Assembly (NCBI GenBank): GCA_004193555.1
Contig: RPGP01000040.1
Span: forward strand, 687,127 to 751,126
From: Desulfobacteraceae bacterium Eth-SRB1
Lineage (GTDB): Bacteria > Desulfobacterota > Desulfobacteria > Desulfobacterales > ETH-SRB1
Direction of reading: 5' to 3'
Length of the DNA: 64,000 bases
In this document: piece after piece, positions 3,901-39,526 of the stretch
How the letters are laid out: each line of letters opens with the position of its first letter
Position numbering within the stretch: position 1 is the first letter of the stretch
Made by a program: the position numbers and the translations under genes
The notes under the pieces: model-generated
Database searches by the model: none
Told to the model about the DNA's origin: nothing
Seen by the model: only the letters and a program-made list of their open reading frames with translations

Positions 3901-6900
3901 TTATTGTGAAAGATATTCATTAAAAATATCAACTGCATCTTGAGGCGTAACATTATTATCTCCATTGAAATCGGCCCTAAATCTCTGTTCCGCTGACAAA
4001 CTTTCCCATCCAACCAGATACAGGTTAAAAGCATCTACGGCATCCTGAGGGGTAATACTGCCATCACCACTTACATCCCCCTTGACCCCTGTTACATACT
4101 CCGCTGATTTATGATCCCCATCAAGGGTGTTGCCGGCGACATCGGTAATCGTTGTGGACACCACCACGGTGTAGGTCTGGCCTGCCGTCATCTCGGTCGT
4201 CGTCAGGCGGTAGGTATTGCTACCATGGTCGGCCGCCGCCGAGATGGTTAATCCGGAAATGGAATATTTAGAGGTGGTCGTGCCACCGATTATCGCCTCG
4301 CTGAATATCACGTCCACATGTGTTGTGTCAACGTAGGACGCGGAGCTGACCTGCGGGGCTGTGCTGTCATAAGTCCAGTTGAACTGGTCAGAGGCAGTGT
4401 TGCCGTTGCCCGCTGCGTCAGTAAACGCATCTGCTGCTACATCAATGGTGCAGGCACCATCTGAGGTTGGTGTAAACGTGGCGGTGTAAGTTGTGCCGGT
4501 ACCGGAAAAACTGCTCAGTGAGCCATTTGTCACCGTGATATCGGTCACAGCAAAATTGGTTGTCGCCTCGCTTGATGTAAAAGTAAGCGAGAGAGTAGCA
4601 TTGTTGGATGTAGAGCCGTCAGACACCTCTGAAGCTCCGATGGTCATGGTGGGGGCTGTGGTATCTATGGTGAATGTATTATTTGTCGCGGCTTCATTTG
4701 AATTGCTTGCCGAATCACCGCCATTTGAGATGGTAACTGTGGCCAAGCCATCGATATAGGTGCCGCCCGTAGCGGCAACGATAGTGTATGGATATGTCCA
4801 GACTCTTCCTGAATCTGCTGCCGTCATATCGGTTGCAGATATATCGGTGTCTCCCTGTTGAGTTAGGGCAATCTGCGGCGTTGATACCGGGGTTTCGCTG
4901 AAAGTTGCCGTAATGGTCAGACCGCCTGCCTTGAACGGACTGGTTGTATTGGATCCCTGGGTGTATGTCAGAGCTACCGTGGGTGGCGTGGTATCTATCG
5001 TGAATGTTCCGCCGCTACCGATGGAGATACCGGCATCTGCAGATGTTTTTAAAGTAACCGTCGCTGTTCCATCCTTATAGGCGGTGCCATCCTTGGTCGT
5101 GACGGTATAATCGTAAGTCCAGCTCGTACCTGAACCTGTCATATTTTCATCTGTTTTATCGGTGGTTCCCTGCTGGTTTATTGAAATCTTCGGGGCACTT
5201 TCCTGCGAGGCGCTCAAAGCGGCAGTGATTGTAAGAACGCCAGCCTTGAATGGGCTGGACGTATTAGACCCCTGGGCGTATGTAATTGTGGCGCTCAAAG
5301 ATTCTGTATCTATCGTAAATGTGGAGCCACTTGTGATGCTGATTGCGGTTCCGGTAGAGCTCTTAATTGTTACAGTGGCCACTCCATCATCGTATCCCTC
5401 TTCTGTGGCCGCATGAACCGTATAGGGATAAATCCAGATTTTGTCATCGTCCGATGGTGTCATATCGGCTTCAGCAATATCCGTGGTTCCAGACTGATTA
5501 ATGGAAATCGTAGGGGCCGCCGACTGAGATTGTGTGAAGGTCGCGGTAATCGTCAAGCTCCCCGCCGGGACATGATCCGTATCCGAAGCGCTGTAGGTCA
5601 GCCCTGCGGTTGTCGTCGCCGAGTTTACCGTAAATCCGTCTGAGAGCGTTCCGGGATCGGTCCCAACATTGTTCACATTCACATCATAGGTATTTGGAGT
5701 AATGCTTGCAGGAACAACACAGGTCAACTTTGTTGACGGGGTGTCCCCATCAAGAGTTACTCCGGTACACGAAGTAGTCCCAATTTTTACCGTCGCGCCG
5801 GATCGAAATTTTGTCCCCTCAATTGTCACAGATTGTGTGCCGTCATTGGTCATGCTTGCGGGTGAGATACTTGCAACTGTGGGAACAGGGTAACTGACCG
5901 TAAATGCCTCAGGTTCAATGTCATATTGAGAATCAGGATTGGTTACCTTGACGTCATAGAGGCCTGTAACCTTATCTGCGGGAACAACAGCGGATATTTC
6001 AGTCGCACTCTTCACGTTTACGCTGGTGCATGAAATAGCATCTTTTCCTGATACCTCAAGGGTTACCAGGGTTGTGCCTGTTGTCTGGAAGTTTGCGCCT
6101 GCAATGGTGATTGTTGTAGTACTGTCATTCGTTCCGGATGAGGGAGAAACCGATGTAATAGCAGGCGCCGGAAGCTTTATCTGGAACCCTCCGGCTGTTG
6201 CCAGGAAAGTCCCGGACTGGCTGTCCGTGTTTGTCACTACCACATTATAGGTGTCAACCGTCTTCCCTGCCGGAACGGTAGCCGTAATGGATGTTTTTGA
6301 AGAAACGGCCACACTCGTTAAATCGATATTCGAGTTGACACCATCAGGGTCTCTCAACTGGACGGAGGCCCCGGTGAGAAAGCCGGTTCCCGTTATTATT
6401 ACGGATTTATCCGTTGCATTACTGGCTGAAGTTGGCGATATGGCGGTCACCGTGGGAGCGGGGTTTTTCACTGTGAAACCATCCGCCAGAGGTTCGCTGG
6501 TACCCCAGTCCGTGGTAACCGTGACATTATATGATCCGGCTGCCTTGTCCTTAATGGCATAGGTTGCGGTAAGGCTGGTAGAACTGACTACCGAGATATT
6601 GCTCAGCGCGGTTGTTCCGATCTTTGCCGATATGCTGTCAAATGCAGTCCCATCCAGTTTTTTAAAGTTGGTACCCGTGATGGTTACGGGAACAGTATCG
6701 CTGCTGTTCAGACCGTTGTCCGGTTCAATCTTTGTTACTGTCGGGGCGGGGGTTGTATCAATGATGATAGGGCCGAAATGCTCGGTGGTTGTCCAGTTGG
6801 CGCCGTCATCCACAGCCCGCATATGAAGATACCATGTACCATCTGCCAGGGTACGTGTCACGGCAAGGGCGCTGACAACACCCGAATAATCCTCATTTCG

Positions 6901-7158
6901 GGTCTTTGAGGCGCTTATCTCCGTATTGCTCGTATTATCCCATACATAAACATAAGAATCAGCCGCTGTCCCTTCAGTCGGCGTCATGGCAGACCAGCTT
7001 ACTGTAACCGAGGTGTTCGTAGAGGATGTAGACACCTCGTGGGTTGAAGAGCTGAAGTTTGGTGTCCAGGATATCGCGAAGGCATTTCCTGATCCCAGGA
7101 AAACTGCCAGAGAAATCAGGATGCTCATCAAAATCGATTTTTTAACGGCACTAAGCAT
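3901..7158 (-). CDS. Exported IPT/TIG and Ig-repeat protein with C-terminal type I dockerin
   Basis: The protein has 1085 residues. The start ATG at 7158 follows an AAAGGGG ribosome site. Residues 1-28 are a signal peptide (ends GNAFA). An FN3-like domain follows, then four IPT/TIG domains (each beginning APTVTxIxP or similar and containing TITGTNF-type strands). Next come four Ig-like repeats carrying SPFKAGxLTITA and xQQGTTD motifs, then Big-type domains. The last 60 residues are a classic dockerin: two calcium-loop/F-hand repeats, [17 protein letters not shown] and [17 protein letters not shown]. Dockerins bind cohesins, and cohesin-like domains occur in the genes on both sides. No catalytic domain is visible, so it is probably a structural or adhesive surface protein that docks onto a cohesin partner. 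It probably belongs to an operon running from 19295 leftward. Confidence 0.88.
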
Positions 7159-10300: not shown

Positions 10301-13300
10301 ACCGCCTATTGTGAAATTACCATCAGAATCGGTGTTTGCGCCGCCCCATGAACCTGTCTCGGACCAGGCGTCAATCCAGATATACGCAACTCCCTGCCCG
10401 TCAATCGTAACGGTTCCGGAAATTGTTACACCTGCAGAAAGGGTGAAATTGATCTCAGTTGCAGGTGTATCAGCGGTCACAACAACAGGATCGGCATAAA
10501 ACTGGTTCTCGTATTTATCGGAATTGATATCAACCTTGTAGTCTGCGGCCGGTTCAAGCCCTCTGATGGTATATGTAACGTCACCTCCGCCTGCAATACC
10601 GTTTATTTCCGTGCCGTTGCCGCACATATTCAATTCAGACCAGGCATTTACCCAGACCCAATCGCCTTCGGCAAGTCCTGAAATCGTTCCGGAAATAGAT
10701 GACCCACCGGAAAGGGTGATATTTATGGTGTCATCTGCGGTTCCATCAGTAACATCCACCGGAGTAGCCTGCATCCAATCGGAGGTGCCGTTCGGGTTTG
10801 TATCACTGTAAAATTTCTGGCCGTATTCATACGACCAGACATCTATCTTGTAGTCTGATGCCGAAGCAAGGCCGGCAATGACATAGGTCCCATCTGTGTT
10901 GACGGGAGCGCCGCACCCAAATCCCGTGGACTCTGACCAGGCACTGACCCAGCAGTCACGATAATCTGTCTCGGTAGCGTCGTCAGGCAGCGTTATTGTC
11001 CCTGAAATGGAAACACCGGCAGACAGCGTAAAGTTGATGTTTCCTACGCTTCCACCGGTAACATCTACCAGATCCGCCTGCATCCAGTCATTTTGTCCGT
11101 CATAGAATTGGCTGGGCCATCCTTCCTTCCAGACATCCACACGATAATCAGACGCAGCAGCCAACCCGGAAATGGTATATTCTCCATTAGCATTCGTGGA
11201 TTCTCCCCTGCCGAACCAGGTCGAATCGGAATAAGCGTTGACCCAGACTCCTGCAATCCCCGTTCCGGTTTCGTCCGTTACGCGGCCGGAGATTGAATTG
11301 CCTGCCGAGAGATTGAGGTTGATGCTTACGGCATCATTAATAGTAATATCCACAAAATCGGCATTCATCCAGTCGGTCTTTCCGTCATAAACCTGATATG
11401 TATAACTTTCGTGCCACATATCAACCCGGTAATCAAAGGCAGGCACAAGACCGTGTATCGTATATTCTCCATTCTGGTCAGTCTGTGCGCCGTTTCCTGT
11501 CATGGCTGAATCGGACCAGGCATTGACCCATACATTGGAAACAGGTGTGCCACCAGCCAGAACCAAGCCGGAAATCGACTTTCCTTCCGCTACGATAAAA
11601 TTAACACCCGTGGCCGCTGCCCCGTCTGATGTTGCCACCAGCGTCGCCTGATCCCATATAGTTGTGCCAACGGCGGTCAGCGCCGAGTAATCATTGCCGG
11701 CAGGAGCCGCATCACCAGGAGCGTAACCAGTATACATATAGAACTGGTGCGCGTATTGATCATCCTGGATTTCCACACGGTAGTCGGTTGCCACAACAAG
11801 ACCGGGGATCGTGTAGTTTCCATTAACGTCGGTTTCCGTCCCGCCGCAGCCACCACTCGATTCTGACCATGCATTGACCCACACACGGCCAATACCGTTT
11901 TCCGCATCGTCTTTGACTGAACCCGAGATAGACACACCGGCGCTCATTACAAAGTTTACACCGGAGGCGCTGTTTGCAAATAAATCCACCTGTGTCGCCT
12001 GCATCCAGTCGGAAGTTCCTACCGGCGGAATTCCGCAAGCAGAATAATCTACTACACCGTCAACGGGTGCAGATAATGTACAATCATCAGCCTTCTTGAA
12101 GTGCTGGTGCGCATAATTCTCAGACCATACATCAACCTTGTAATCCGACGCGGCTACGAGGTTAGAGATGGTATAATTTCCGTCGACATCGGTCTGGGCG
12201 CCAAAGCCGAACATGGCCGAATCCGACCACGCGTTGACCCAGATATTGGGTATCGGAGTTGTCCCATCCGGTTCATATACTGTTCCGGAGATGGTCTTAT
12301 CGCCGCCTTCCGGGCCGAAGGTCACCGTAAAGGTAAAGAATTCGGACACGGATACGTTTTCGTTGGCATCAAAAGACAGAACCTTCCACTGGTATTCCTT
12401 TCCTGCAAAGAGAGGTGGTCCCATGTATTCAACAAAAGGAGTTGGGATGCCCCACATCTCCCACACCATCGCACCGTACTCGTCAAATAACTGAACGGCA
12501 TAGAAAACCGCCCCTGTTGAAGCGTCCCAGGAAGCAATCGGCGGCATCTGTTCGCTGACCGTGCCATTGGAAGCAAAACTGCTCATGATACCGCTCACCA
12601 CGGCAGTAACCTGAACCGGGTCACCGCCGGCAGCAAGGTTGATGTTAAAGGTATAGATATCGCCAACAGTCGGCGCCGAGGCGAGAGAAATGACATTTGC
12701 CCACTCACCGTCATTCGGCTGAAAGTCATGATGCATTCCATCATCAAACAGCGAAACCGGATCGCCGGTAATCGCCGGCCCGGTGACTGTTACCGAAGAA
12801 ACTTCATCTGGATCAACCTCCAGACCAAACTCAAGCTTATAGCTGGTAGTGGTTTCGTCAGCACTTGCGATAGTCTCGACCCAGACATCGTATTCTTTCT
12901 GGTTTCCATAAATTTTCCAGGTATCTCCCTCTTTTACCAGAAACATGGTGAAGGATTCGACGTCCGTGAAGGACTCACCCCACTGATTATAAATTTCAAC
13001 GACCTCAGTCTGGAAACAGCTCGCATTGGTTTCGTCGATCATCTGAATATTAGTGGCGTACAACGTAACGGAGATCGCCTCATTTAGATCCTGTTCCAAT
13101 TCGATCCTGAAGTCAGCCTTGTTCTCGCCGTCGTGCAGATAGACAGCCGAGAAGAACGCCATGATCGCATCCAAGTTGGCAGTGCTCGGACTGCCGATAT
13201 AGGTTTGCAGGGCCGCATTGAGATTTGCATACAGCGTCAAAATGGTATCTTCAGCCGTACCGGCCGCAACCACGGTTACGGTGACCGTATCCGGCGGACT

Positions 13301-15373
13301 ATCCTCAGTACCGTTGTTCACTATCAGTTGAAAGGTATATTCGCCCGTCGCTTCCGGAGTAAAGGTCGGGTTAACGGTATTTGCATCCGTCAGTGTCACC
13401 GTGGTTCCCACAGTCTGGGTCCAGCTATAGGTCGCCACGCCCTGGCTCGCTGATCCGTCAAGGGTAATCTCCGTATCTACAATCGCCGTAAAATCAGCGC
13501 CTGCCACGGCAAAGGGAGCCTCAGGTGGAGGACCGGCACGCTCAAACTTCACGTAATTAAAGGTTACGGAAGTATCATCTTTGGCAGTTACCTCAACTGC
13601 TGATAGCCAGTTGGGTGTCACAAGGGAATAGAACCCGCCCACCGCTACAGATATATGACCATCCGTCACGCCGGTATGGTCGATATTATCGGCAGTAACC
13701 TGACAGAGATCTGTAAAGGACTCGGCTTTAATCGTCTGGAAGGATTCCAGGCCCATCTCCACAGGCGGATTTCCCCAGCTCAGATCGACTGCCGAAATGT
13801 CGAAATCCTGTGGAGGCTGTGCCGACATGTCTACGAAAGCTTCGGTGGTAAAATTATATGCACCTGTAGCAGGGTCAAGAGAAAGAGTGACTGTCTTGTA
13901 GCAAGCCGAGAGACCGACGCTGGCATCTACCGCAGATGCAAAGGTATATGTGAACTGAGCAAGATTACCGGGCATTCCACCGAAGTTTGTGGTCCTCGTA
14001 ATAGATTCGCCGGGTTTCTCCGCATGAGTTGTGCCGGAGCCGACAAAAGCCTTTAATTCAGTTGGTTCTGTACCACTCGGAAATATTTCCGGAATGGCAC
14101 TGTCGGGGAAGAAAATTCTAATATTTCTCGCCTGTCCCGGTATCCCTGCTATGGTGGTTCCGCACTTGGCCGTGATGGTTCCCTTGGCTCCTCCACCAAC
14201 TGCCGCATTACTGTCCCAGCCTGGCAGAAGCGGGAATATATCCCCAACCCAGTGGTTTGTCTGAGCAATAATTCCAAGCGGTTCGCTACCGAAAGAGGAA
14301 TCGGTAAATATCGTAAACCCGAAAAGGGACGTAAATGATTCATTTGCATTATTCGTTGAATCAAAAGTGGTTGTAGTGATAGTCAGCGTGCCTGTTCCTG
14401 ATGAATCATAGTCCACTGTGGGAGCAGAGCCTCCCATAACAGCAACAAGATGAGGCACTTCGTTATTCATGTTTACTGTCAAAGTCGCAGTTGTGCCTGC
14501 AACAATACCGGTTCTGCTAAGTGAAATATAATCCTTGTTAATAGGACCCTGTGTGCCGCCGAATATGGATGTATTTGCATTCGTGGGCATATTCTGTGAG
14601 GGAAGAGAATTGTCTGCGACTATGGCCGTAAAATCGGCAGTACTAAAACCAACTAATAACCCACCCCAGCCGGATGAAACGCCATTTAAAGGCGCTGTTG
14701 CTGAAGAAAGACCCGTCGGCGGCGTGCTACTGTCACTACCCTGAGTTTGCCCCGGCATTACCCAAACAGTACCGTTTGAGAACATATCCTGATGAGCAGC
14801 AGCAATGAAATAGTCAGTGCTTACTGTGTTTCCCAGTTGTATTGCCGTTATCTCAGGCGCTGTGACAGCAGCCGGTGTATAGATTAGGGAGTAAAGTATC
14901 TCCCCAGATGCGGTTACATTCAGCGAAGTCGTTGTTTTCATATCGGCAACAACAACTGCTCCGGTTCCGTCGTGTCCTTCCCTGAGTTCAAAATCACCTG
15001 CACCGAACTCTGCCGGATTCCAACTCAGTGTTGCGGTGTAATTGATCGGTCCACCAACATTACCCTTTGGATTAACTCCGAGAATCCACACATATGAGGT
15101 CAGCCCGTCCTCACGCATATCTCTAAAGTACTTTTCCCAAGAGGGTGAGTAGAGTGCAATATCCACGGTCTGCTCCACAGCCATGCCAGGATGTGGAACA
15201 GTTTCAGCAGCTGCATCGACACCTATGTGTGATATCGCCTGTTTTACAGCTAAGGTGCCGTCATCCCTTTCAACCATAATTCCTGCAGTCCAGCTAGCCG
15301 ATGCCGGGCTTGCGAAAAACAAACCGAAAAAAACAAACAGACTAACAAGCATTAAAAAAGTTTTCTTTTTCAT
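7325..15373 (-). CDS. Giant exported protein: novel N-terminal module, PKD, NTF2-like, and 17 carboxypeptidase-regulatory-like repeats
   Basis: The protein has 2682 residues. The start is the ATG at 15373 (MKKKTFLML), because a GGAAGGTG site lies upstream; an ATG at 15394 would add 7 residues. It has a signal peptide (ends ASPASA). Residues about 27-165 form a module shared with the two genes upstream (motifs VNPKGNVG, TATLSW, DGTGAVVV). Later come a PKD-like domain (VDTEITLDGSASQG), an SnoaL/NTF2-like segment, and an FN3-like domain (KEYQWKVLSFD). From about residue 1025 to the end there are 17 tandem beta-sandwich repeats, each with SISGTV, WVNAWSD, GNYTIxGL and DYxVDVW. No dockerin, cohesin, protease or glycosidase motif is visible. 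It is a likely extracellular stalk or matrix protein; function unknown. Confidence 0.88.
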   Translation of the reverse strand: MKKKTFLMLVSLFVFFGLFFASPASASWTAGIMVERDDGTLAVKQAISHIGVDAAAETVPHPGMAVEQTVDIALYSPSWEKYFRDMREDGLTSYVWILGVNPKGNVGGPINYTATLSWNPAEFGAGDFELREGHDGTGAVVVADMKTTTSLNVTASGEILYSLIYTPAAVTAPEITAIQLGNTVSTDYFIAAAHQDMFSNGTVWVMPGQTQGSDSSTPPTGLSSATAPLNGVSSGWGGLLVGFSTADFTAIVADNSLPSQNMPTNANTSIFGGTQGPINKDYISLSRTGIVAGTTATLTVNMNNEVPHLVAVMGGSAPTVDYDSSGTGTLTITTTTFDSTNNANESFTSLFGFTIFTDSSFGSEPLGIIAQTNHWVGDIFPLLPGWDSNAAVGGGAKGTITAKCGTTIAGIPGQARNIRIFFPDSAIPEIFPSGTEPTELKAFVGSGTTHAEKPGESITRTTNFGGMPGNLAQFTYTFASAVDASVGLSACYKTVTLSLDPATGAYNFTTEAFVDMSAQPPQDFDISAVDLSWGNPPVEMGLESFQTIKAESFTDLCQVTADNIDHTGVTDGHISVAVGGFYSLVTPNWLSAVEVTAKDDTSVTFNYVKFERAGPPPEAPFAVAGADFTAIVDTEITLDGSASQGVATYSWTQTVGTTVTLTDANTVNPTFTPEATGEYTFQLIVNNGTEDSPPDTVTVTVVAAGTAEDTILTLYANLNAALQTYIGSPSTANLDAIMAFFSAVYLHDGENKADFRIELEQDLNEAISVTLYATNIQMIDETNASCFQTEVVEIYNQWGESFTDVESFTMFLVKEGDTWKIYGNQKEYDVWVETIASADETTTSYKLEFGLEVDPDEVSSVTVTGPAITGDPVSLFDDGMHHDFQPNDGEWANVISLASAPTVGDIYTFNINLAAGGDPVQVTAVVSGIMSSFASNGTVSEQMPPIASWDASTGAVFYAVQLFDEYGAMVWEMWGIPTPFVEYMGPPLFAGKEYQWKVLSFDANENVSVSEFFTFTVTFGPEGGDKTISGTVYEPDGTTPIPNIWVNAWSDSAMFGFGAQTDVDGNYTISNLVAASDYKVDVWSENYAHQHFKKADDCTLSAPVDGVVDYSACGIPPVGTSDWMQATQVDLFANSASGVNFVMSAGVSISGSVKDDAENGIGRVWVNAWSESSGGCGGTETDVNGNYTIPGLVVATDYRVEIQDDQYAHQFYMYTGYAPGDAAPAGNDYSALTAVGTTIWDQATLVATSDGAAATGVNFIVAEGKSISGLVLAGGTPVSNVWVNAWSDSAMTGNGAQTDQNGEYTIHGLVPAFDYRVDMWHESYTYQVYDGKTDWMNADFVDITINDAVSINLNLSAGNSISGRVTDETGTGIAGVWVNAYSDSTWFGRGESTNANGEYTISGLAAASDYRVDVWKEGWPSQFYDGQNDWMQADLVDVTGGSVGNINFTLSAGVSISGTITLPDDATETDYRDCWVSAWSESTGFGCGAPVNTDGTYVIAGLASASDYKIDVWSYEYGQKFYSDTNPNGTSDWMQATPVDVTDGTADDTINITLSGGSSISGTISGLAEGDWVWVNAWSELNMCGNGTEINGIAGGGDVTYTIRGLEPAADYKVDINSDKYENQFYADPVVVTADTPATEINFTLSAGVTISGTVTIDGQGVAYIWIDAWSETGSWGGANTDSDGNFTIGGLKANTIYNVNIWHPDYANQSATVTTETSGSAAVEVSFTLGSGYSISGTVTVGVTPVQNAWVNAWSDSEMTGRSEPTDASGNYVIKGLAPADDYRVDVWVEDYASQFYDGVTMWDQATLVDIKGASQEGIDFSLSAGSSIKGTVTVPSGGNKNDLWVNAWSDTAGGMGAPVNNWNGDVGTYEITGLVPATDYKVDIWSPDYQHVFYNGVSDWMLATEVIVVESGDTEGINFVLSAGKTISGTVTVPEGGNLSNLWVNAWSDTAGSWGGSVVAGDGTYEITGLADASDFVVDIWSEEFGYQVYNGKRNWEDADRVSTAGGNIGDINFTLTAGKLISGRITDTNDNGIANAWVNVWSDSGRCGRGEPTDQDGNFIIKGIDAFSDYKLDVWSEEYGYVLYKDALPNNTTGDWMQATAIDVTTDNATGINMKLSEGCTIYGNVRNVSGDPIQYAWVNAWCDAGGNGAETDASGNYVIKGLPSSDSYKVDVWTEAYVHMFYDGVTDWGAANTVDVSSGSAVDIDFVLSSGNSITGTVKTGDTPLADIWVNAWSETAGCWGGASTNSSGVYTIGGLAPASDYVVDIWSDTYAHQFYNGKTDWMDATRVDVSGGDATGINFNLSSGNYISGTITLPEGSTDYYNVWVNAWSDTAMSGNGCPVKYDGTYKIAGLIPGGGYKLDVWSEEYVHVFYQDGATNNSTTDWANATEIDISSASGNATEKNLTLGSGLSITGTVELSGVGKANIWVDAWSPTTWTWGGAETDSDGNFTINGLLAGTDYVVSTWSWEYMNASQSGVSTGDTVDLILSAGVSISGNLHNDDDAGLGGVWVDAWSSDLGVGNWAMTSGTGNIGDFIITGLKPNTTYTVSAATGNHGFISKDVVVGAVSVAGVDLHIKTGFSISGTVTKASDAQFIDDVEVIVAAFDTSDGTFHNSTTASAVDGTYTLTNLPNDKSFKIVVKAAGYTDMWHDGAATYVDASQIAYVDADVENIDFSLVAE
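7328..12305 (-). repeat. 17 tandem coding repeats (~97 aa each) with the WVNAWSD signature
   Basis: I counted 17 successive units beginning with SISG/SITG/SIKG-type strands, from DKTISGTVYEPDG near 12300 to GFSISGTVTKASD near 7620. Most contain WVNAWSD or WVDAWS, then GNYTI or similar, then DYKVDVW, then DGxTDWMQAT. They resemble the CarboxypepD_reg / Cna-B-like transthyretin fold. Repeats are diverged, so they are older than the duplication at 1799-2745. Confidence 0.88.
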
Positions 15374-15475
15374 TTTATCACCTTCCCGTGACAAGCCATT
15401 TTTAACCTATATTTCTTTATTATTTTTTTGACCAGATTATATATATATATATATTCAAGTTTGAAAACGTATGCC

Positions 15476-15979
15476 CTACGGTTCATAAACAATGGAAAAA
15501 TGTTTGATCCTTTTGCCGATTACATCGTAGAAAGACGTTGCTTTCATGTCTTCGACCACAGCCCTTCCTGCCCCGTCATATCCTTCTAAAAGCATAAATT
15601 TGCCGTCTCCAAAGGTTGCCGAATCCCAGGACAGCCGCGCAGTACGTTGAACAAACGGATCCCCCATATTCCCATGTGGATCGATTCCGATAATCCAGAG
15701 GTGCCTGGACATGCCCGTACTACGAATATCGCGGTACATGGATGACCAATTCGAATCAAACAACACCATATTGACACTGTATTCCGGCGGTGCCGGAGGT
15801 GACGGCAGAGTCGCAGCTTCCCTTTCAACGCCGATGATGACCTGGCTAGCTGTCACACCACCTATGTCCTGGCCGTCGGCACGGATGACGCTTTGCCATG
15901 AAAATGGTGTCTCTTCCGCATTCGCGGAAATTGACAAGCACACTGCCAATAACAAGATTATTATCCACGTTTTTTTCAT
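15476..15979 (-). CDS. Small exported protein made only of the island's shared ~145-residue module
   Basis: The protein has 167 residues with a signal peptide (ends ANA). The mature part aligns by eye to the N-terminal module of the 2682-residue protein and to the middle of the cohesin protein at 16105. Shared features are IGV near the start, then a central W, WIIGIDPHGNMG, TARLSW, LLEGYDGAGRAVV and EDMKAT, ending with an aromatic strand (FSIVYEP). It lacks the usual RxDDG...VKQA segment, which here reads DGQDIGG...VTAS. I do not recognise a named family. It lies between two genes that carry the same module, so it is probably an island component acting outside the cell. Confidence 0.8.
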   Translation of the reverse strand: MKKTWIIILLLAVCLSISANAEETPFSWQSVIRADGQDIGGVTASQVIIGVEREAATLPSPPAPPEYSVNMVLFDSNWSSMYRDIRSTGMSRHLWIIGIDPHGNMGDPFVQRTARLSWDSATFGDGKFMLLEGYDGAGRAVVEDMKATSFYDVIGKRIKHFSIVYEP

Positions 15980-16104
15980 TTTATCTCCGTATCAACTCGG
16001 TAGCATTATTTGCTATCAGAAGTGAGGGGGCCCCACTTTTGTCGTATTTCGCATATGAACCAGTAGGTTGCCGCCCTCTACTGCTGACATCACCCATCGT
16101 CCTT

Positions 16105-17850
16105 TTATTGGGTCTGCACAGTGAAGTCACACTCCTCACCGACTTTGACCCAGTAGCCCTTCCCTGTAGTAAACCCGGTAAGCACCTCCTGGAAAACACC
16201 ATCGAATCCGAATTCGGCCAAAATCACACCGCCCGGAACCGTCGTCGGAGACGCCGAACCGTTTACCGCGCCGATCAAGTGCCATCCGGGGGCCAGTAAA
16301 ATTGAATAACTATCGAAACTCGACCCTATAATGGTATATGTCGCACCGGCCGGCACCTTAACCCAGTATCCTGTTCCGGGTTCCACGGTTGTTGCTTCCT
16401 GAAAGGTCCCGTCGAATTTAAACACCGCCAGTGCATCAGGAAATAATGTCGCTACAGTTGTATCAACCGGTGTAACCGGCAGTGAAACCAGATTCCATCC
16501 GGCAGTCAGATTTAAATCCACACTGATGGAATACGAAAATTCGACGGTAAAGAGCTGATCGGTCTGGCCGGTGACAGCATATGAAGTCGTCGTTCTCATA
16601 TCGGAAACAACGATTTCGCCGGTTCCATCAAAACCGCTCCTCAATCGGTAGAAACCGTTGGGGTTGAACTCTGCAGTGGCCCAACTGAGGGTTGCAGTAT
16701 AATCAGTCGACGGTATACCGACATTACCCTTTGGATTAACATTGATAACCCAAGCATACGCCGTCTGACCGTTTTGCAACACATTTTTGTAAAGTTTTGT
16801 CCAGGAGACAGTGTCCTCATATACAGCGATATCCACCGTCTGCTCGACCGCCATGCCCGGATGCGGAGTTGTATCCGACACCGAGTCCACGCCGATATAG
16901 GCTACGGCCTGTTTCACATTCAGTGATCCGTCATCTCGTTCGGCCGTTAGAGTAGCCAGCCAGGCCACTTCCACACGGTTGTCCGTATCCGGATTGTAAC
17001 CGGTTCCATTCGGATCGTCCTGAACCTTCGGGTCATACGTTCCAGCATTGATATATTCCTGAAGGTCAGAATACCCATCCTTATCATAATCAGAGGTCGC
17101 ATCCGCAGTGGTCAAATTGCTAAAATGGGTATTTTCCCAATCATCAGCAATGCCATCACTATCCGAATCTACTGAATCTCCGCTAAACGTAACCGATCCG
17201 GAAGTTATTGACGTAACATCAATAACGGGGAAAGCGGCTGTTAAATCCGTCTCCTCGGCAATTGCGCCGATAAGATAGGGAATGGTTTCAGGAGCATCAT
17301 CTGCTGTCCCTGCAATGCCATCAACACCAAGACCATAGCCAGCATCGGTGTTATTCAAAGTGGTTGCGGTAACGCCGACATTGTAAGCTGTTGCTGATGC
17401 TCCAGAATTTAGTGTAAAAAATAGAGTAAACAGCGTTGTGTTAGAGGCGCTTGTCTCCGCAGTGCAACGCGCGGCAGCAATCATAGTCCCGGTGGAAACA
17501 TTATTTGCGATTAGAGGCTGGTAATAAATTATGCCGGAACCAGAAGGAACCTCGACACTCGTCAGCGGCAAAGGATCTGGTACAGGGTCTAGTGCGTTCC
17601 ACTGACTTGCGAATATATCAAAAAAAGTGCTTTGAATATCTGTCAGGGTAAGCGCCGTTGTATTATATGTCACGGTAAATGCGGCGCCCGCAATACCAAC
17701 GGGGTTATCCACCGTGACAGGCACCTGGAGCGTTGCATCTGATGCCCCGCTATTTGTACCCACGGTTAACGTCACAGCAAAAGCGCTTGAGGCTGTGAAT
17801 ATCATAAATGCCATAATAGACAATAGTGTGATCGTTCTTTTTGTATTCAT
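16105..17850 (-). CDS. Exported cohesin-like protein with calcium-binding segment and shared novel module
   Basis: The protein has 581 residues. The start ATG at 17850 has an AAAGGAGC site; an upstream start at 17886 would spoil the signal peptide. The signal peptide ends SSAFA. Residues about 26-175 look like a cohesin domain (VTLTVGTNSG start, GIAGAAFTVTYN strand, TLFTLFFTLNSG strand). A thrombospondin-3-like calcium segment follows (DSDSDGIADDWE, DYDKDGYSDLQEY). The island module comes next (nucleotides about 16521-16962; VNPKGNVG, TATLSW). The C-terminus has two copies of a domain with GWNLVSLPV / GWHLIGAV and GYWVKV motifs. It is probably a surface receptor for the neighbouring dockerin proteins. 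Cohesin assignment is by pattern only. Confidence 0.85.
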   Translation of the reverse strand: MNTKRTITLLSIMAFMIFTASSAFAVTLTVGTNSGASDATLQVPVTVDNPVGIAGAAFTVTYNTTALTLTDIQSTFFDIFASQWNALDPVPDPLPLTSVEVPSGSGIIYYQPLIANNVSTGTMIAAARCTAETSASNTTLFTLFFTLNSGASATAYNVGVTATTLNNTDAGYGLGVDGIAGTADDAPETIPYLIGAIAEETDLTAAFPVIDVTSITSGSVTFSGDSVDSDSDGIADDWENTHFSNLTTADATSDYDKDGYSDLQEYINAGTYDPKVQDDPNGTGYNPDTDNRVEVAWLATLTAERDDGSLNVKQAVAYIGVDSVSDTTPHPGMAVEQTVDIAVYEDTVSWTKLYKNVLQNGQTAYAWVINVNPKGNVGIPSTDYTATLSWATAEFNPNGFYRLRSGFDGTGEIVVSDMRTTTSYAVTGQTDQLFTVEFSYSISVDLNLTAGWNLVSLPVTPVDTTVATLFPDALAVFKFDGTFQEATTVEPGTGYWVKVPAGATYTIIGSSFDSYSILLAPGWHLIGAVNGSASPTTVPGGVILAEFGFDGVFQEVLTGFTTGKGYWVKVGEECDFTVQTQ

Positions 17851-17925
17851 CGATAGCTCCTTTGTTCCGAAATTTGCTAAAACCATGCAAATTTTTTTAC
17901 AAATAGTTTCGAGTCATATCTTCAC

Positions 17926-18807
17926 TCATTTTTGCGCGGAGACACTCCCGCCACTTTTGGCTAATGAGCCCTCCTGTGAAATGAGCATATGCCTTAGTTG
18001 ATCAACTTCTCTTTGAAGCCTTTTTAAACCATCGGCATTTCGTTTCTTCAAGTTCTTCAGTTCTGATGTCAGCATGGAAAGCTGTGATTGAATTCTCCCC
18101 GTCTCATTTTCAGATGCAGAACTTAATTCACTCCTCATCTGTTTGAGCTGACGGTTTTTCTGTTCTTCCTCGCTGCGTATCTTTTCCTTCAGCCGGCGAA
18201 GTTCGGCCATTTTGCCTGTTATTCTTGAGCGAAGAACTGAAGAGCTTATTTTTTTATTCAGCGCAGCCATTTTCGCCGTGTCTTTTCTCTCTTCCGGCAC
18301 AGGCCCAGCTGTTTTTGCTTGTTTTGTCATTTCCTGACCATCGCTTCGAACTTTGACAATTCGTCCGGCGCCTTTTTCATTCACAACTACATAGGAAACC
18401 TTTTTATTGCCTTTATCGAAAACCTTCAACTCGGATATATAAAATTCTTCTTGACCCTTGCTTGTAGTCTTCTTCGAAAAAATAACGGCAGAGCTGTATG
18501 GATTCACAAGCCTTTTTATACCATTTTCGACAGGAAGATTTTTAAATTTGACAGTAATATTTTTTGACTGGATTGTGCTGTCCACAAACGTGGTCATTCC
18601 GCATGCATCGGATAACTTTTTCAGAACCTGTACTAAAGGAGTCTCTGAAACATCCGCAGAAAGTTTGCCGGATTTGTATTCAATTGCCATCCCGGCAGCA
18701 TAAGAAACAGAAGAATCCACTGCTGTTAAAAGAAATACAGCCAAAAAACAGACTGCCACAGCGGATAAAACCAACCTGTTGCGGCTAATTAATAGTCCCT
18801 TCTTCAT
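17926..18807 (-). CDS. Exported STN (secretin/TonB N-terminal) domain protein with C-terminal coiled coil
   Basis: The protein has 293 residues. An N-terminal hydrophobic segment (residues 13-32) is a signal peptide or anchor. Residues about 45-105 match an STN fold (LSADVSETPLVQVLKKLSD, ITVKFKNLPVENGIKRLV), as found in the N0 domain of secretins such as GspD. From about residue 175 the chain is highly charged with long heptad-like stretches (KMAELRRLKEKIRSEEEQKN), indicating a coiled coil. There is no secretin barrel. It is encoded between a dockerin-like and a cohesin gene, so it may be a periplasmic adaptor between this island and an outer-membrane secretin (inference). Confidence 0.75.
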   Translation of the reverse strand: MKKGLLISRNRLVLSAVAVCFLAVFLLTAVDSSVSYAAGMAIEYKSGKLSADVSETPLVQVLKKLSDACGMTTFVDSTIQSKNITVKFKNLPVENGIKRLVNPYSSAVIFSKKTTSKGQEEFYISELKVFDKGNKKVSYVVVNEKGAGRIVKVRSDGQEMTKQAKTAGPVPEERKDTAKMAALNKKISSSVLRSRITGKMAELRRLKEKIRSEEEQKNRQLKQMRSELSSASENETGRIQSQLSMLTSELKNLKKRNADGLKRLQREVDQLRHMLISQEGSLAKSGGSVSAQK

Positions 18808-20188: not shown

Positions 20189-20813
20189 TTACATGGCTTC
20201 AGGCCCTTTTATTCCAAAGACTTCCCAGAGAGGAATCTCTACGCCTTCCAGTGCAACCAGGTGCAAAACCTCCATGGATCCGAAGATGTCCCCCTTTCCA
20301 TAAAGAACATCTTCGCCTAACAGAAAACGCTCCACATATTGATCTGCCGGGTCAACAATAATATACTCCCCTATGCCGTACCTTTCGTACCGCGCTTTCT
20401 TTTCCCTTTTGTCCTTCACAACAGTACTGGGGGAAATGACCTCAATCACCAAATCTGGTGAACCCTGGATGTTGGCCTCTGTAATCTTCTTTTCATCGCA
20501 TACAACAAAAACATCGGGCTGGATTACATCATGTTCGGACAGGACAACATCGGTTGGGAGCAATGCCGGCAACGCATGGATTACCTTTGAGAGCATCCCT
20601 TAGAAGTGAAGCAAAGTTAAAAACAATTTTTTGGTGCTTAAAAGTAGGCGCAGGGCTCATATTATAAGTCTCACCATCAATCAATTCCCACCGCTCATCA
20701 TCCGGCAAAGCAATATAATCGGCATAGGGCTCGCTCAAAGTAAACTTTTTTCGGTTTTTTTGGCTAAAGGCATAGTTGCCGCCTCTTTTTGTTTTCGAGT
20801 CCCCAATTACCAT
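20189..20813 (-). pseudogene. Uma2-family (DUF820, restriction-endonuclease-like) gene broken by a frameshift
   Basis: Two overlapping minus-strand frames together give one Uma2 protein. The N-terminal part (20813 down to about 20560) has the YADYIALPDDERWELIDGE opening and a PAPTFKHQKI helix. The C-terminal part (about 20575 to 20189) has DVVLSEHDVIQPDVFVVC, then SPDLVIEVISPST and the Lys-Tyr-rich helix. The frame changes near 20550-20570 in the run that encodes IAPN/LLPT. A single-base indel, natural or a sequencing error, would explain it. The start overlaps the vapC stop by 7 bp. Confidence 0.75.
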
Positions 20814-21196
20814 GCTGTAATTAACAACCCATCGATTTCCTTGAAATGTTCGTCACGTGAAATCAGTGTTAACCCATGTTGTTTGGAGATAGCTGCAATC
20901 CAAATATCATTTTCTGGAATTGGCCGGCCCTTCACACGCAAACCGTTCTTTATCTTTCCATACTGCTGTGATGTAGCCGCGTTACAAGTAAGAACAGAAC
21001 TGCTGACTGCAAATTCATTTATACGCGCAATATTCGCCTCCATACGGCTTGATTTGTGAGCGCCGTAATAAAGCTCGCCCAAAGCAATACTTGGCACAAA
21101 AACCTCATTTGCATCAGTCAATGAATTTATCACTGCTGCATCGTTGGCAAAAATTGCAATTACTATATTGGTATCCAATAAAAATTTACCATTCAT
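20807..21196 (-). CDS. vapC: VapC-family PIN-domain ribonuclease toxin
   Basis: The protein has 129 residues, the usual VapC length. PIN motifs are intact: LLDTNIVI with the first catalytic Asp (residue 8), ALGELYYG with Glu near 43, IPENDIWIAA with Asp near 98, and SRDEHF with the last Asp. VapC toxins cleave RNA, often initiator tRNA, and are neutralised by the partner encoded just upstream. The ATG overlaps the antitoxin's 3' end by 11 bp, so the two are translationally coupled. The pair sits between the dockerin/toroid gene and the rest of the island. Confidence 0.85.
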   Translation of the reverse strand: MNGKFLLDTNIVIAIFANDAAVINSLTDANEVFVPSIALGELYYGAHKSSRMEANIARINEFAVSSSVLTCNAATSQQYGKIKNGLRVKGRPIPENDIWIAAISKQHGLTLISRDEHFKEIDGLLITAW

Positions 21197-21413
21197 CGGG
21201 AATTATCTTTTCGCACCCATCTTTAATAGCTCGTTCAATATCCATGAGATCCTCATAATCAATAGTACCCGCAAAATGCAATAAATTTTGCCCTGGCACA
21301 CCATGAACCTTTGCTGTGGTAAGTGCGCGAGCAAACTCAAGCACCTGTCGCCGTTGTTCGAGCGGCAATCGTGTCAGTTGTTCATGAATATCTTTCTCAA
21401 CTGTTGCACCTAT
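21186..21413 (-). CDS. Probable VapB-type antitoxin
   Basis: The protein has 75 residues from the ATG at 21413, which has a GAGG site 9 bases upstream (longer starts at 21455 or 21425 are possible). The chain begins MIGATVEKDIHEQLTRLPLE and is helical, with a C-terminal acidic stretch (DYEDLMDIERAIKDGCEKI) that could wrap the toxin. The N-terminus resembles DUF2281-like antitoxins of PIN toxins. Assignment rests mainly on the overlap with vapC. Confidence 0.7.
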   Translation of the reverse strand: MGATVEKDIHEQLTRLPLEQRRQVLEFARALTTAKVHGVPGQNLLHFAGTIDYEDLMDIERAIKDGCEKIIPDEW

Positions 21414-21529
21414 CATGATGACCATCCTCTTTTCATAAATTAATCTTGTTCTCAATATGACAAATTTCCAACCACATAACGTAACTTCTCAAAAAGTTCG
21501 GATAGGGACGGCTTTAAGCTCCATGTCCG

Positions 21530-24500
21530 CTATCTCAATCCAGCAACATCTTGCAAAATATAAATAACCTCGGCCAGGCCGATTTTGGCATCGCCGTTGA
21601 CATCCGCGCCGGATGTTGCATAATTGGATCGGATTCCCGCCGGGTTCATTCCAACCGTTACCTGCAGAGCAAGAATTGCATCGGTTAGGTTAACATTACC
21701 GTCGTCATTTACGTCACCAATTACAATCGGAGGCCAGTTATTGGCAGTGCAGTTGTTATCCTCGTTGAGTTCATCGATTTCACCGTTAATGTCGGCACAT
21801 ACCGTTACCTCATCTCTTTCGCCACTCAAGGTCACTGTCGTGAAAGAACTGGAATAGGTTTCACCGGGAGGCAGAGCTATCGGAACGGCTTTTTGCTCAA
21901 TAGCAACATTATCTACAGTCAGACCAACATCGTGCCCTGCCAGCGTCTCGATATTTCCCCTGTTCTTGACCGTATAAGACACTGTGTAGGTTCCAGCACC
22001 CTCATTTACCCATTCTTCGCTCACCTGGGTAACTTCCAGATCGGGCTTCTCTTCTGTCGGGGCAACCGCTTTCTGCAGAGTCAAAAGTGCCCAGTTTGTA
22101 GACAGCATCCTGTCCCCGCTATCGAAGGAAGAAACGGGCCACGGGCCATCGGCGTTTTGCTCCGATTTCAGGGCTTCGGAGAAGTCATAAAACCAGTCAA
22201 TGGAATCGATCTGGCTTATGCCGAGAGCCTCCAAACCCTTCATAGCTGTGTATGTAGTGTGATAGCATGAAGGATTCCAGTTCCACCCGGAGTTCCAGTG
22301 CCTTACAATGTAATCAATCGCATCCTGTACCCTCTCTGTCGTCTTCGTATCACCCACAAACGCCATCTGCTGGAGAAGGTTGCCGGTTCTGAGAATATTG
22401 GCGCCCATATCATTTGGATCAGTGATATCGGAATAATGAGAGCCTCCATCGGCATCATCGCCATCAACATCGTCCTGGCTATAATCGATCCAGTAATTGA
22501 GTTCTGTCCTGACAAAGCCCGGAATAGTCAATCCAAATCCATCTGGCGGATCTGCCTCGGCATAGGCCAGAGCAAGGGTCACCCATCCTGAGTTGGACTG
22601 GTCGCTTCTTGTATTGTCATTGTTTGTAGGCTGATAGTTCCACCCGCCCCTGCCGTAGCCCGAGTCTGTCTGTGCCCAGGCCAGATAATCGACCGCATCC
22701 TGCAGGACTTGCGTATAGGTCCGGCCGTGTACCGGGCTGCCAGGAACATTTACACTAATGCCCGGGGCATTGCTGGAGGCAATAGCCATCGCTACAATGC
22801 TTGTATAGTATATGCTGTGCCATTCATCGGGAGCAGTGAAATAAACGCCAATGCCATTGCCGTCTCCATCCGGATTGCCGGCCGGTTGGCTACCAATAGC
22901 AGTTGTATAGGCATTGGCGAAGATATAGTTAAGGCCGTTTTCGACAGCCGTGTGATATGTATAAGAGGTGTCAAGGGGTGACAAACCGCAACTTAAGGCA
23001 TGCTTTTCAAGGTTCAGGACAGCAAGGGCGGTTTTTGCCAGCGCGTACTGATCTCCCCATGAACCGTCCGGATTCTGGTTCTGAGACAGCCACTGCAAAC
23101 CATTGCCAATGGCCGCGGCAAGTTCATTTATAACTGTAATGTTAATGCCGGTGTTGCCGTTAGTCTGTACTAAAAGTGGATTCCCCGCGTAGCTTCCCGT
23201 GTAATCCGCTGGTGACGACGCGCCGCTACCGTCTTTATCCCAACTGGCAAAGAGGTACACATGGCCGTCTGCGGCAAGATTGGACAGGGTGTAAGTCGCG
23301 TTGATATCGGTGATGGTGGTGCTGTCGAGGAGCCTGTCCGAAGAGGGGTCGTCCCCATCATAGGCGGAGATATAGATATCACCGTGGCCTGATTCAAAAT
23401 CATCACAAAGGATATTTCCTGAAACCGAAGCCGCCTGCAGCTCAATGTTTAACTGAACATCAATATTCGTAAGGTTGGTCCCCTCTGCAAGGGTGATCGG
23501 ATTCACGCTATATGCGCCAACCCAGTCACCAGGAGTGCGACTTCCGCTTCCGTCTGAATCCGCATCCCATCGAGCATAGACATAAAGCTCGGCGCCAACG
23601 GGCAGATTATACAGCGCATACTGACCCGCATGGGAGAGAGGCCCCCCATAGGACACCAAACTTCCACCCGGGAATGGGCTGTCGTATGCAGCCACGTAAA
23701 TCGTTCCTCCTGATATATAACCGCTTGAGGCCGGCTCAATCTGGCCGGAGACGGATCCCACGGGGTTGTCTTTGGAAACGTAGAAGGGCCGTTTCGAGCT
23801 GGTGGAACGATTTTCCGGATCTGTCTCTTTATCAGACACATCAACACGCCACTTATACGGGTTGTTTACTTTGAGAATGTCGGCAGGCACGGTAGCAGTG
23901 GTGGCTGTTGATCGTTCTGATTTATAAATAAGCTTGCCGCTGTAATCAAAGATCAAAATTCTATAGTAAACAGGAACTGCTGTCTCATCTGTCACAGGCG
24001 ACCAGCTAAAGGTCGGGGTCGTGGTTTCCATATAACCATGATACCGCGGTGAAAATATATACTCAGGAATAGGCAGACGATTGAAAGTAAATGTTTTATC
24101 TACCGTTAGATTACTCCCATCTCTACCGTCCACAACCGTAAAGGTGTATGTCCCGTTAGGGAGGATGCCGCTCTCGCTGTGATAATAGGCGCCGTCTTGC
24201 CAGAGATCATAACCGGTAAAGGTAGATGAAAAACCCTCGGGACCTGTTACGGTCATTGACCCGACATCCCATGGCGCAGGCCCCTTTATCTTGATACGAA
24301 ACTGGGTTTTATCCTCATCAGGAAATATTCTACTCCTGACAAAGGCTCCCATGGCAAGAGGTTCAGCAGAAGCCCCTGTGGAAAAGCCCTTCCATGAGCT
24401 TGAAGATAAGTTGTTGGGACTAATGCCGCTCTGGCTGTCAAACACCTGAACCTGCCATTTGTAAGCGGTATCGGGCTCAAGAACGCCTTCCGGCACAGTC

Positions 24501-26134
24501 ACAGTAGCGTCAGGTAACCTGTCAGAGGTATAGATGGTAACCTCTTTGTTCCAATCCATTATATTAACGCGGTAATAAAGAGTACCGATTGTTTCGTCTG
24601 TAACAGAGGCCCAGCTCAAGGTGGGTGTGGTTGTGTTCACATAAGCGCTGCCTGCCGGAGAAATCCCCGTGGACATATCAACCACATCGATCAGATTGTG
24701 TGTAAAATGTTTATCCGCATGATAATCTTTCCCGTCCCTGTCCTTTAAAACAAAATCATACCACCCGCAGGGAAGGGTTTCCGATATACTGTATTTGTAC
24801 AATGTTCCGAATCGGTAATGGGCTCTTATATCCTGCTCAACATCAAAGTCATACCTTAAACCATCCGGGCCATAGACCGTGAGTGATTCTATATCCCACG
24901 GGGCCAAGCCGTTCACCCAGCAGAAAACGACCGAAAACGGTCCGCCGTCACTGTTTCCTCCCCAGATAGCAACCCTATCAATATAAGCATCATATTCCTC
25001 AGGTGGTAAGCCGTTAGGAAAGATGCCGGAAAATGTTCTATCCGGAAAGGAGCTCATGCCCTTTATCAATATCTCATCAATATAGGGATCGTGTATAAAT
25101 GCGGGCAGATAATCCCGGATAGAGATGGGATCGTCAAAAAATTCGCTGAAATCGACACGGACAACGTCTTCTTCATCATCCATATCCACGGGTTGCTGAT
25201 TGGTTATCGAATATTTGATGTCTGCCAGATAAGACCTAAAATCAGTCTCATCCGTTAAATCCTCAGGATCAATGGAAAACAGATCATCCGTCTGATCGTC
25301 TGCTTCATTCCTGATAAAGGTGGAGGCATCATTGTACCAGTCAGTTGCAGCAAGGACAGCAGGCTTTGCTTCGCCAATTTTGGTAGCGCCGACACCACCA
25401 GTTAAAAGAGTGAGAAGGTTTGGATATGCATCGAGGAGATCATTATTGACATTGAATATATCATCGTTGATTTTGGCAACTATTGCGTCTATATCCGCAT
25501 TGAGATCATACGAATCTATGATCAGGATTAGCGCCTTTGCCGCATAGAGGAGCGATTTGTAAAGAAGGACATCGCCATAGTCGACCTCGATGTCGTTTAA
25601 TTCCCCAGTCTCTGTAGTAAGTAATGTTATACCATTAATGAAGGTTTCACTCGTGATATTATTAAGATTTGCGATTGCGCCGTCAATCTCAGGTATGATA
25701 ACGGATTGCAAAAACGTCTGAACATCCGTGCCCGACGGGCTGTCCGATGGCAATATGATATTTCCATATATATCTTCAGGGATAGATGCCGTCCAGTTAA
25801 ACAGGTCTCTTCCTGCTGCATCCATACCAAAGCCGTCAAGAAGCTCCTTTACGTTTTCGATTGGAGCATCAGCGGTATAGGTCACATTATTATCCAAAAG
25901 AGCTGCAAGGCGTGTAACCGCATAGAAGAGATTGGCTTCCTGGTCTGAAGGATTTGCTGTAACTGCTGCCTCAAATTTTGCATTGGCCTCAAGCAGCTTC
26001 GAATAGGTCGGGTTACCGTCATTAAAGAGCAAGGCGCGACCCTCGGTAACAGAAGCATAAGCTGGAGTTGTTAAAGAAAAAAAGAATACGGATAGCCAAA
26101 AGATCGTGACAAACCTGCACATTTTTCTTTTCAT
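21530..26134 (-). CDS. Exported dockerin protein with FN3-like, alpha/alpha-toroid (prenyltransferase/squalene-cyclase-like) and CARDB domains
   Basis: The protein has 1534 residues. The ATG at 26134 has a GAGGGAG site. The signal peptide ends TPAYA. Residues about 28-290 are helical, TPR-like. Two FN3-like units follow (YYRVNIMDWN, YYRILIFDYS), then two carboxypeptidase-regulatory-like units. Residues about 1030-1350 form repeats of a toroid fold (GLQWLSQNQNPDGSWGD, WVTLALAYAEADPP, AMKGLEALG, ALKSEQNADGPWPV), as in prenyltransferase, squalene-cyclase and complement-type domains. The DxDD cyclase acid motif is not evident, so catalysis is doubtful. A CARDB-like domain precedes the C-terminal dockerin (DVNDDGNVNLTDAILALQ and DVNGDAKIGLAEVIYILQ). 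It is a candidate dockerin partner of the island cohesins. Confidence 0.86.
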   Translation of the reverse strand: MKRKMCRFVTIFWLSVFFFSLTTPAYASVTEGRALLFNDGNPTYSKLLEANAKFEAAVTANPSDQEANLFYAVTRLAALLDNNVTYTADAPIENVKELLDGFGMDAAGRDLFNWTASIPEDIYGNIILPSDSPSGTDVQTFLQSVIIPEIDGAIANLNNITSETFINGITLLTTETGELNDIEVDYGDVLLYKSLLYAAKALILIIDSYDLNADIDAIVAKINDDIFNVNNDLLDAYPNLLTLLTGGVGATKIGEAKPAVLAATDWYNDASTFIRNEADDQTDDLFSIDPEDLTDETDFRSYLADIKYSITNQQPVDMDDEEDVVRVDFSEFFDDPISIRDYLPAFIHDPYIDEILIKGMSSFPDRTFSGIFPNGLPPEEYDAYIDRVAIWGGNSDGGPFSVVFCWVNGLAPWDIESLTVYGPDGLRYDFDVEQDIRAHYRFGTLYKYSISETLPCGWYDFVLKDRDGKDYHADKHFTHNLIDVVDMSTGISPAGSAYVNTTTPTLSWASVTDETIGTLYYRVNIMDWNKEVTIYTSDRLPDATVTVPEGVLEPDTAYKWQVQVFDSQSGISPNNLSSSSWKGFSTGASAEPLAMGAFVRSRIFPDEDKTQFRIKIKGPAPWDVGSMTVTGPEGFSSTFTGYDLWQDGAYYHSESGILPNGTYTFTVVDGRDGSNLTVDKTFTFNRLPIPEYIFSPRYHGYMETTTPTFSWSPVTDETAVPVYYRILIFDYSGKLIYKSERSTATTATVPADILKVNNPYKWRVDVSDKETDPENRSTSSKRPFYVSKDNPVGSVSGQIEPASSGYISGGTIYVAAYDSPFPGGSLVSYGGPLSHAGQYALYNLPVGAELYVYARWDADSDGSGSRTPGDWVGAYSVNPITLAEGTNLTNIDVQLNIELQAASVSGNILCDDFESGHGDIYISAYDGDDPSSDRLLDSTTITDINATYTLSNLAADGHVYLFASWDKDGSGASSPADYTGSYAGNPLLVQTNGNTGINITVINELAAAIGNGLQWLSQNQNPDGSWGDQYALAKTALAVLNLEKHALSCGLSPLDTSYTYHTAVENGLNYIFANAYTTAIGSQPAGNPDGDGNGIGVYFTAPDEWHSIYYTSIVAMAIASSNAPGISVNVPGSPVHGRTYTQVLQDAVDYLAWAQTDSGYGRGGWNYQPTNNDNTRSDQSNSGWVTLALAYAEADPPDGFGLTIPGFVRTELNYWIDYSQDDVDGDDADGGSHYSDITDPNDMGANILRTGNLLQQMAFVGDTKTTERVQDAIDYIVRHWNSGWNWNPSCYHTTYTAMKGLEALGISQIDSIDWFYDFSEALKSEQNADGPWPVSSFDSGDRMLSTNWALLTLQKAVAPTEEKPDLEVTQVSEEWVNEGAGTYTVSYTVKNRGNIETLAGHDVGLTVDNVAIEQKAVPIALPPGETYSSSFTTVTLSGERDEVTVCADINGEIDELNEDNNCTANNWPPIVIGDVNDDGNVNLTDAILALQVTVGMNPAGIRSNYATSGADVNGDAKIGLAEVIYILQDVAGLR

Positions 26135-28137: not shown

Positions 28138-28238
28138 GAGCAAGGCAACCATGTTGCCGTACGTTACGCAAACACGGTTTGCTTGATCCATAATACGCCG
28201 ACACGGTCGGCTCGATCCATATTTGTTGCTCGTTGCTC
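28138..28238. repeat. Hairpin repeat, copy 1 of 2
   Basis: About 100 bp that recur at 35077-35180. It holds small hairpins with ACG-type loops: GCAAC-CAT-GTTGC, GCAAAC-ACG-GTTTGC and GCCGAC-ACG-GTCGGC. The last two are followed by CTTGATCCATA and CTCGATCCATA, so the block is itself a tandem of about 32-bp units. Confidence 0.75.
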
Positions 28239-28282
28239 TCATAAAAAATGGGTTTCTCTGTGTGCTCCGTGGTGAAAGTAGA

Positions 28283-31914: not shown

Positions 31915-31976
31915 AGGGTTAGAAGGTTAGAGGGTTAGAGGGTTAGAGGGTTAGAGGGTTAGAGGGTTAGAGGGTT
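31903..31976 (+). repeat. 8-bp tandem repeat GGTTAGAG with G-quadruplex potential
   Basis: About nine units of GGTTAGAG/GGTTAGAA in a row after and across the gspL stop. The sense strand reads GGGTTAGAGGGTTAGAGGG several times, that is four or more G3 runs separated by 5-nt loops, so the mRNA between gspL and gspM could fold a G-quadruplex. No mechanism is shown by sequence alone. Confidence 0.85.
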
Positions 31977-32100
31977 GGACCGATTATTTTTCTAATCTTC
32001 TTATGTTCTCACCTTCTGATTTTCTTGCATTACTCGGAGGTTAGAGGTTTAAAATTTTTGCGTCTTTGCGTCTTTGCGTGAGGCATTTTAGGATAGAATT

Positions 32101-33626: not shown

Positions 33627-33694
33627 TTTGAACGTCTCGGAATTTCTGCAACTTATTGAAATTCCTGTGATCTTAGTTCCACCGGAGGCGGATT

Positions 33695-34194: not shown

Positions 34195-34220
34195 TAGCAA
34201 TGGCATAGGGAAACTCTGTC

Positions 34221-35036: not shown

Positions 35037-35076
35037 TTACTCGTCGCTGGTTACTCGTTGCTCGTTAAAACACTTT

Positions 35077-39517: not shown

Positions 39518-39526
39518 GATAAAAAC

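Follow-up and report, generated by a model that had tools for sequence, protein, structure and literature searches.

What recurs in three adjacent exported proteins of Desulfobacteraceae bacterium Eth-SRB1, and what it may do outside the cell, is the question raised by this locus. The first-pass annotation of the window, meaning the whole 64,000-nucleotide stretch of DNA analyzed here, had proposed that these proteins share a module of about 145 residues which belongs to no Pfam family and acts as a functional unit; a census of carriers and fusions and a structure prediction were put forward as ways of examining the proposal. The module lies in a minus-strand run encoding a cohesin protein, a small single-module (solo) protein and a 2682-residue protein, with dockerin-type proteins on both flanks:

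3901..7158, minus strand: 1085-aa exported protein with TIG/Big domains and a C-terminal dockerin-like repeat (PF00404, E 2.3e-4, 21.7 bits, below the cut-off of 22.9)
14879..15295, minus strand: module copy A (profile limits), at the N-terminus of an exported protein of 2682 residues (7325-15373)
15476..15979, minus strand: solo copy B, a 167-aa protein (profile limits, sequence)
16108..16518, minus strand: C-terminal domain of the cohesin protein, a second uncatalogued domain termed GWNLxSLP
16540..16965, minus strand: module copy C (profile limits) in the cohesin protein (16105-17886, 593 residues)
17344..17775, minus strand: cohesin domain of the 593-residue protein (PF00963, E 6.7e-6, 26.8 bits against a cut-off of 24.1)
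21530..26134, minus strand: 1534-aa exported protein with CARDB and a C-terminal dockerin-like repeat (PF00404, E 7e-4, 20.2 bits, below the cut-off of 22.9)

Module copies in the window

The three copies proved to be homologous and to lie on the minus strand in neighboring exported proteins where the annotation had placed them, at about 140 residues each and 40-56% identity. In a whole-genome search, copy A picked up copy C (E 2.6e-47, 56% identity) and copy B (E 9.7e-29, 40% identity), with no fourth copy in the window's own genome. The tree unites copies A and C as fully supported sister sequences and sets copy B apart from both. Copy A directly follows the signal peptide of the 2682-residue protein and is itself followed by a PKD domain and then about 15 CarboxypepD_reg (CnaB-like) repeats recognized by Pfam; the open reading frame opens with TTG to give 2689 aa, and the ATG at 15373, with its signal peptide, gives 2682 aa. 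Copy C lies between the cohesin/TSP3-like part of the 593-residue protein and its C-terminus. Copy B had been taken as an entire mature secreted chain, and this holds: after a signal peptide (15917-15979), the mature chain of the 167-residue protein (15479-15916) is a single module (15485-15901).

An uncatalogued domain family

The three window copies and 26 relatives were scanned singly against Pfam and NCBIfam, and no family exceeded its cut-off on the module; the best E-value was about 0.02, for one member in each case, and the scattered matches at E 0.02-1 were taken as chance. Among PDB sequences, the best match to a 26-row module profile had an E-value of 0.11. There was no fn3 or Ig Pfam match on the module. 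Cohesin PF00963 does not match it either, as the cohesin match covers residues 38-181 of the 593-aa protein and the solo has no match, and dockerin PF00404 (a pair of calcium-binding segments, each about 22 residues long) matches no module copy; dockerin-type tails are separate C-terminal parts lying outside the module. The earlier statement that Pfam holds no such family is borne out, and no known domain significantly matches the entire segment in Pfam, NCBIfam or PDB sequences. As far as these three resources go, the module is a real, uncatalogued secreted domain family; what is new is the domain family, while the secretome containing it is of an already known kind.

The motifs picked out by eye are each present in all three window copies, but across the 26 relatives they are near-invariant at some positions only. 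These are the G of IGV and the W of LSW (26/26 each), the P and G of NPxGN and the M of DM (25/26 each), G103 and G115 (24/26 each) and a W near the N-terminus (23/26). The conserved residues are W, G, P, N, D and M, which are structural, and among the 26 relatives neither a conserved His, Cys or Ser nor any conserved catalytic residue set was seen; for this reason the module is unlikely to be an enzyme, and it is probably non-catalytic.

AlphaFold2 was run twice with alignments of four sequences each, giving models of moderate confidence (mean pLDDT 71.5 and 68.3; pTM 0.73 and 0.70) that have the same order of about nine strands; both predictions point to an all-beta sandwich as the likely fold. 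Foldseek found no PDB match to the first model at E <= 0.001. With a second structural aligner (VIA), the top match of both models was the C-terminal beta-sandwich of a GH27 galactosidase (Z 4.9 and 5.7; 6-11% identity to the module), and an agarase CBM appeared lower down the list. Structural Z-scores below 8 fall in the range where common beta arrangements score alike, and kinship with the GH27 domain is too weakly indicated at Z 4.9-5.7 to be claimed.

Distribution of the module

A census of carriers and fusions, made as a class-level profile search of 389 genomes, returned recurrent fusions and five carriers, each from a different family within one order: the window's genome (G000), G122, G132, G269 and G386. 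Together these hold 30 module copies, and an enlarged module profile recovered the same five carriers. Wherever the start of a module protein is included, the protein is of the exported type. Within the window's own family, neither the same-genus genome G100 nor the other genomes sampled yielded the module; this patchy occurrence suggests that it probably moved horizontally. A phylum-wide profile scan of 395 genomes gave no further relative at E <= 0.02; thirteen weak matches fell at E 0.03-1, and of five that were read, two were fn3-like proteins with an LSWDPN...GY pattern and three looked unrelated, none being a convincing member. No module match was obtained in plasmids, phages or viral contigs, and a contig scan with two strict module peptides returned one locus.

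Fusion partners and the GWNLxSLP domain

In the other carriers the module is C-terminal to secreted S8 subtilases (loci L035, L039 and L004) and to a secreted C25 gingipain-type protease (L037), with Flg_new_2 repeats preceding it in several of these protease fusions; the module protein of L045 has a sub-threshold Peptidase_C13 match (22.3 against a cut-off of 22.8 bits). The module-bearing proteases have N-terminal pro-domains of their own, Fervidolysin_NPro-like and Propeptide_C25, and no glycosidases were seen among the module carriers examined. The module is N-terminal in L046, where a PKD domain and a dockerin follow, and in L036, where TSP3 and Ig domains follow. A dockerin-like tail comes after the module in L035 and L039.

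GWNLxSLP is about 135 residues long and looks duplicated, with two similar halves by eye, and it has no Pfam family. In some ten proteins the module is immediately succeeded by this domain; the window's cohesin protein and proteins of L035, L037, L039, L041-L044 and L046 are among them. The carrier genomes have GWNLxSLP without the module too, G269 with many copies of the domain, which makes the module and GWNLxSLP distinct units. The CFI-box, a putative sorting motif (NF041763), was recognized at the end of one module protein (20.4 bits against a cut-off of 15.9), and another falls just under that cut-off at 14.3 bits. CFI-box-like C-termini, rich in G/D and followed by CF[IVM] and a hydrophobic stretch, are seen at L035:2-877, L036:1287-2798, L037:5654-7243, L039:6599-7981 and L040:4242-4940, one of them over the cut-off.

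A free copy beside a fused gene

Each of the five carrier genomes encodes one solo protein of 166-179 residues with a signal-peptide-like start, and in all five the solo follows a module-GWNLxSLP gene on the same strand, its start lying 84, 95, 98, 125 or 187 bp beyond that gene's stop. In the window this upstream product is the cohesin protein, with 125 bp between its stop and the solo's start codon. In G122 and G132 the solo follows a module-bearing S8 subtilase, and for the window, G386 and G269 no protease was recognized in the module protein encoded upstream. The open frame upstream of the G386 solo starts within the module, which may reflect a broken gene or a misassembly. G269 has a sixth small/fused pair, in which the small partner carries a degenerate dockerin-like tail. 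That five genomes, each from a different family, have a free, secreted single-module protein next to fused copies upholds the earlier view of the module as a functional unit, and the recurrence of this position across families suggests that the free copy and its fused neighbor have been under selection together.

In the best tree the solos fall into more than one clade, although their grouping as a single clade is not rejected (p-AU 0.203). Those of G122 and G132 are orthologous (95/95) and keep the same place, the G386 solo is closest to its own neighbor, and the window's solo is not sister to the neighboring fused copies. The charges of solo and neighboring copies showed no consistent complementarity, and promoter and terminator scans gave sites no more numerous than in shuffled sequences.

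Cohesin and dockerin setting

Cohesins are encoded in all five module genomes, compared to 55 of 389 in the order; by a hand calculation that ignores relatedness and genome size, the chance of drawing five cohesin-positive genomes is about 5e-5. In syntrophic sulfate reducers, cohesin/dockerin proteins have been discussed as adhesins that move between clades (PMC10553843). The 1534-aa dockerin-type protein is a possible partner of the window's cohesin.

The cohesin/dockerin/module cluster adjoins a type II secretion-type gene set (28223-41104, plus strand) that comprises an N-methylated pseudopilin, GspK, PilM/PilN-like proteins, a GspD secretin and GspE; type II secretion is a plausible export route for the cluster proteins. 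A 293-aa exported protein (17926-18807) has no convincing Pfam family; by eye, its N-terminal part resembles a secretin N0/STN domain, and it includes a coiled coil. Small Uma2-like and VapC-like (PIN) genes, also assigned by eye, lie at 20189-21455 and separate two blocks of exported proteins.

Two further neighbors were considered and set aside. A conserved operon for a TPR or Glucodextran_B-like protein, a sigma-70 region 4 protein, a zf-HC2-type protein and a CHAT protease lies beside the module clusters of G132, G269 and G122 (L038:10654-15918, L041:6577-11895 and L036:8788-14194, respectively); it was rejected as part of the system, since the window's genome has a single CHAT gene, which is on a different contig, and the other carriers have many. 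A FadL/TodX-like outer membrane protein is often near module clusters (L037:11761-13125, L047:16450-17799), but it was rejected as a dedicated partner as it belongs to a multi-copy family (4-12 per large genome) which occurs in module-free genomes and is absent from the window's genome.

Proposed role and alternatives

We tentatively propose that the module is a secreted, non-catalytic, all-beta interaction part of extracellular cohesin/dockerin-type complexes and that the solo is a co-expressed subunit docking on the fused copies, a reading which we hold to be somewhat short of probable. In large exported proteins the module would adjoin the part used for attachment (cohesin, dockerin, GWNLxSLP or CFI-box) or, alternatively, sit at the tip of a long repeat stalk; its repeated association with proteases, stalk repeats, cohesin and dockerin is in line with a role in binding, not catalysis, within such complexes. 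Judging from gene order, the solo would be expressed together with its fused neighbor and most likely dock by module-module contact, capping or cross-linking the fused copies outside the cell, and with a free copy at the fused gene this docking is the most economical role. The interaction reading draws on the homology of the copies, signal peptides in the sequences, recurrent fusions, the solo-next-to-fusion order and the co-occurrence with cohesins, all computed here, and on the window itself, where the module sits on the cohesin protein between two flanking dockerin-type proteins. Against it stand fold models built on four-sequence alignments with the pLDDT values given above, and against docking in particular stand the lack of consistent charge complementarity and the fact that tandem duplication alone could yield adjacent paralogues, the G386 solo being nearest its own neighbor. 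A bolder version, in which this is a new protein-protein interaction module working beside cohesin-dockerin pairs and the free solo made by the cluster docks on proteases, stalks and scaffolds to assemble a surface matrix, strikes us as rather doubtful.

One alternative is carbohydrate or matrix binding, in which a CBM-like module would anchor proteases, stalks and cohesin complexes on an exopolysaccharide or cell-surface glycan and the solo would be a free lectin-like protein. The module does adjoin catalytic domains and repeats, as accessory modules do, and accessory beta-sandwiches of glycosidases head its structural matches, weak as these are, with the agarase CBM further down; yet these matches lie under Z 8, no conserved set of exposed aromatics is recognizable from sequence, and in the proteins examined the module accompanies proteases rather than glycosidases, which leaves this account unlikely in our judgment. 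If the module served structurally, as a spacer or an aid to folding next to C-terminal attachment domains, and the solos were remnants of local duplication without a part as partners, this would suit the frequent GWNLxSLP and dockerin-type tails after it and the closeness of local paralogues in two genomes (window A and C; G386). This reading we regard as improbable, as five genomes from five families retain an intact gene for a secreted solo, with orthologues in the same place in G122 and G132, and the module is also found N-terminally or alone, where it spaces nothing. The pairing of solo and S8 subtilase in G122 and G132, together with the C25 fusion, would make sense if the module were a pro-domain or inhibitor regulating secreted proteases and the solo a trans-acting inhibitor; with no recognized protease upstream in the other three genomes, pro-domains already present on the proteases, and the module C-terminal to the catalytic domain, very little credence is given to it.

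A separate matter, compatible with any of these roles, is whether the module is a divergent branch of a known, widespread beta-sandwich domain, which we consider quite possible, if less than an even prospect. Secreted proteins of the FCB group have a domain with a similar motif order (xGV...A...PPxPP...DxR...W...LxW...DM...), and the fn3-like look-alikes of the phylum-wide scan, at E 0.03 at best, lean the same way. Against this are the results of the Pfam and NCBIfam scans of single members, the 26-row profile search of PDB sequences and the plasmid and phage searches, all without a match, and the 395 genomes of the phylum that yielded no further relative at E <= 0.02.

Returning to the proposed interaction module, the pairing of solo and fusion genes points to a real building block of extracellular protein complexes. 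Secreted proteases, stalk proteins and cohesin scaffolds are marked by one common uncatalogued domain with a free copy nearby, and if the free copy does bind the fused ones, bacteria would have in this a simple code for assembling complexes outside the cell. Even without such binding, the module and GWNLxSLP are two domain families new to the libraries searched and offer a handle for annotating surface proteins of the carrier bacteria.

Comparison with known systems

The CFI-box (NF041763) differs from the module in being a C-terminal tag and is absent from the window's three proteins. As for fibronectin type III and Ig-like repeats, the module's LSWxPxxF...YxLREG resembles the fn3 pattern LxWxP...YxLxxG, but the module is longer (about 140 residues), has invariant motifs of its own and gives no fn3/Ig Pfam match. 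Accessory beta-sandwiches of secreted enzymes, CBM-like or GH27 C-terminal, share the predicted all-beta sandwich, a similar size and a place beside catalytic domains; sequence similarity is lacking, and the structural matches reach a Z of 4.9-5.7 with 6-11% identity. In comparing the module to cohesin-dockerin complexes (PF00963/PF00404), it is itself neither cohesin nor dockerin, and the carriers examined have no glycosidases; however, the window has it in one protein with a cohesin, elsewhere it is joined to dockerin-type tails, and every genome that carries it encodes cohesins.
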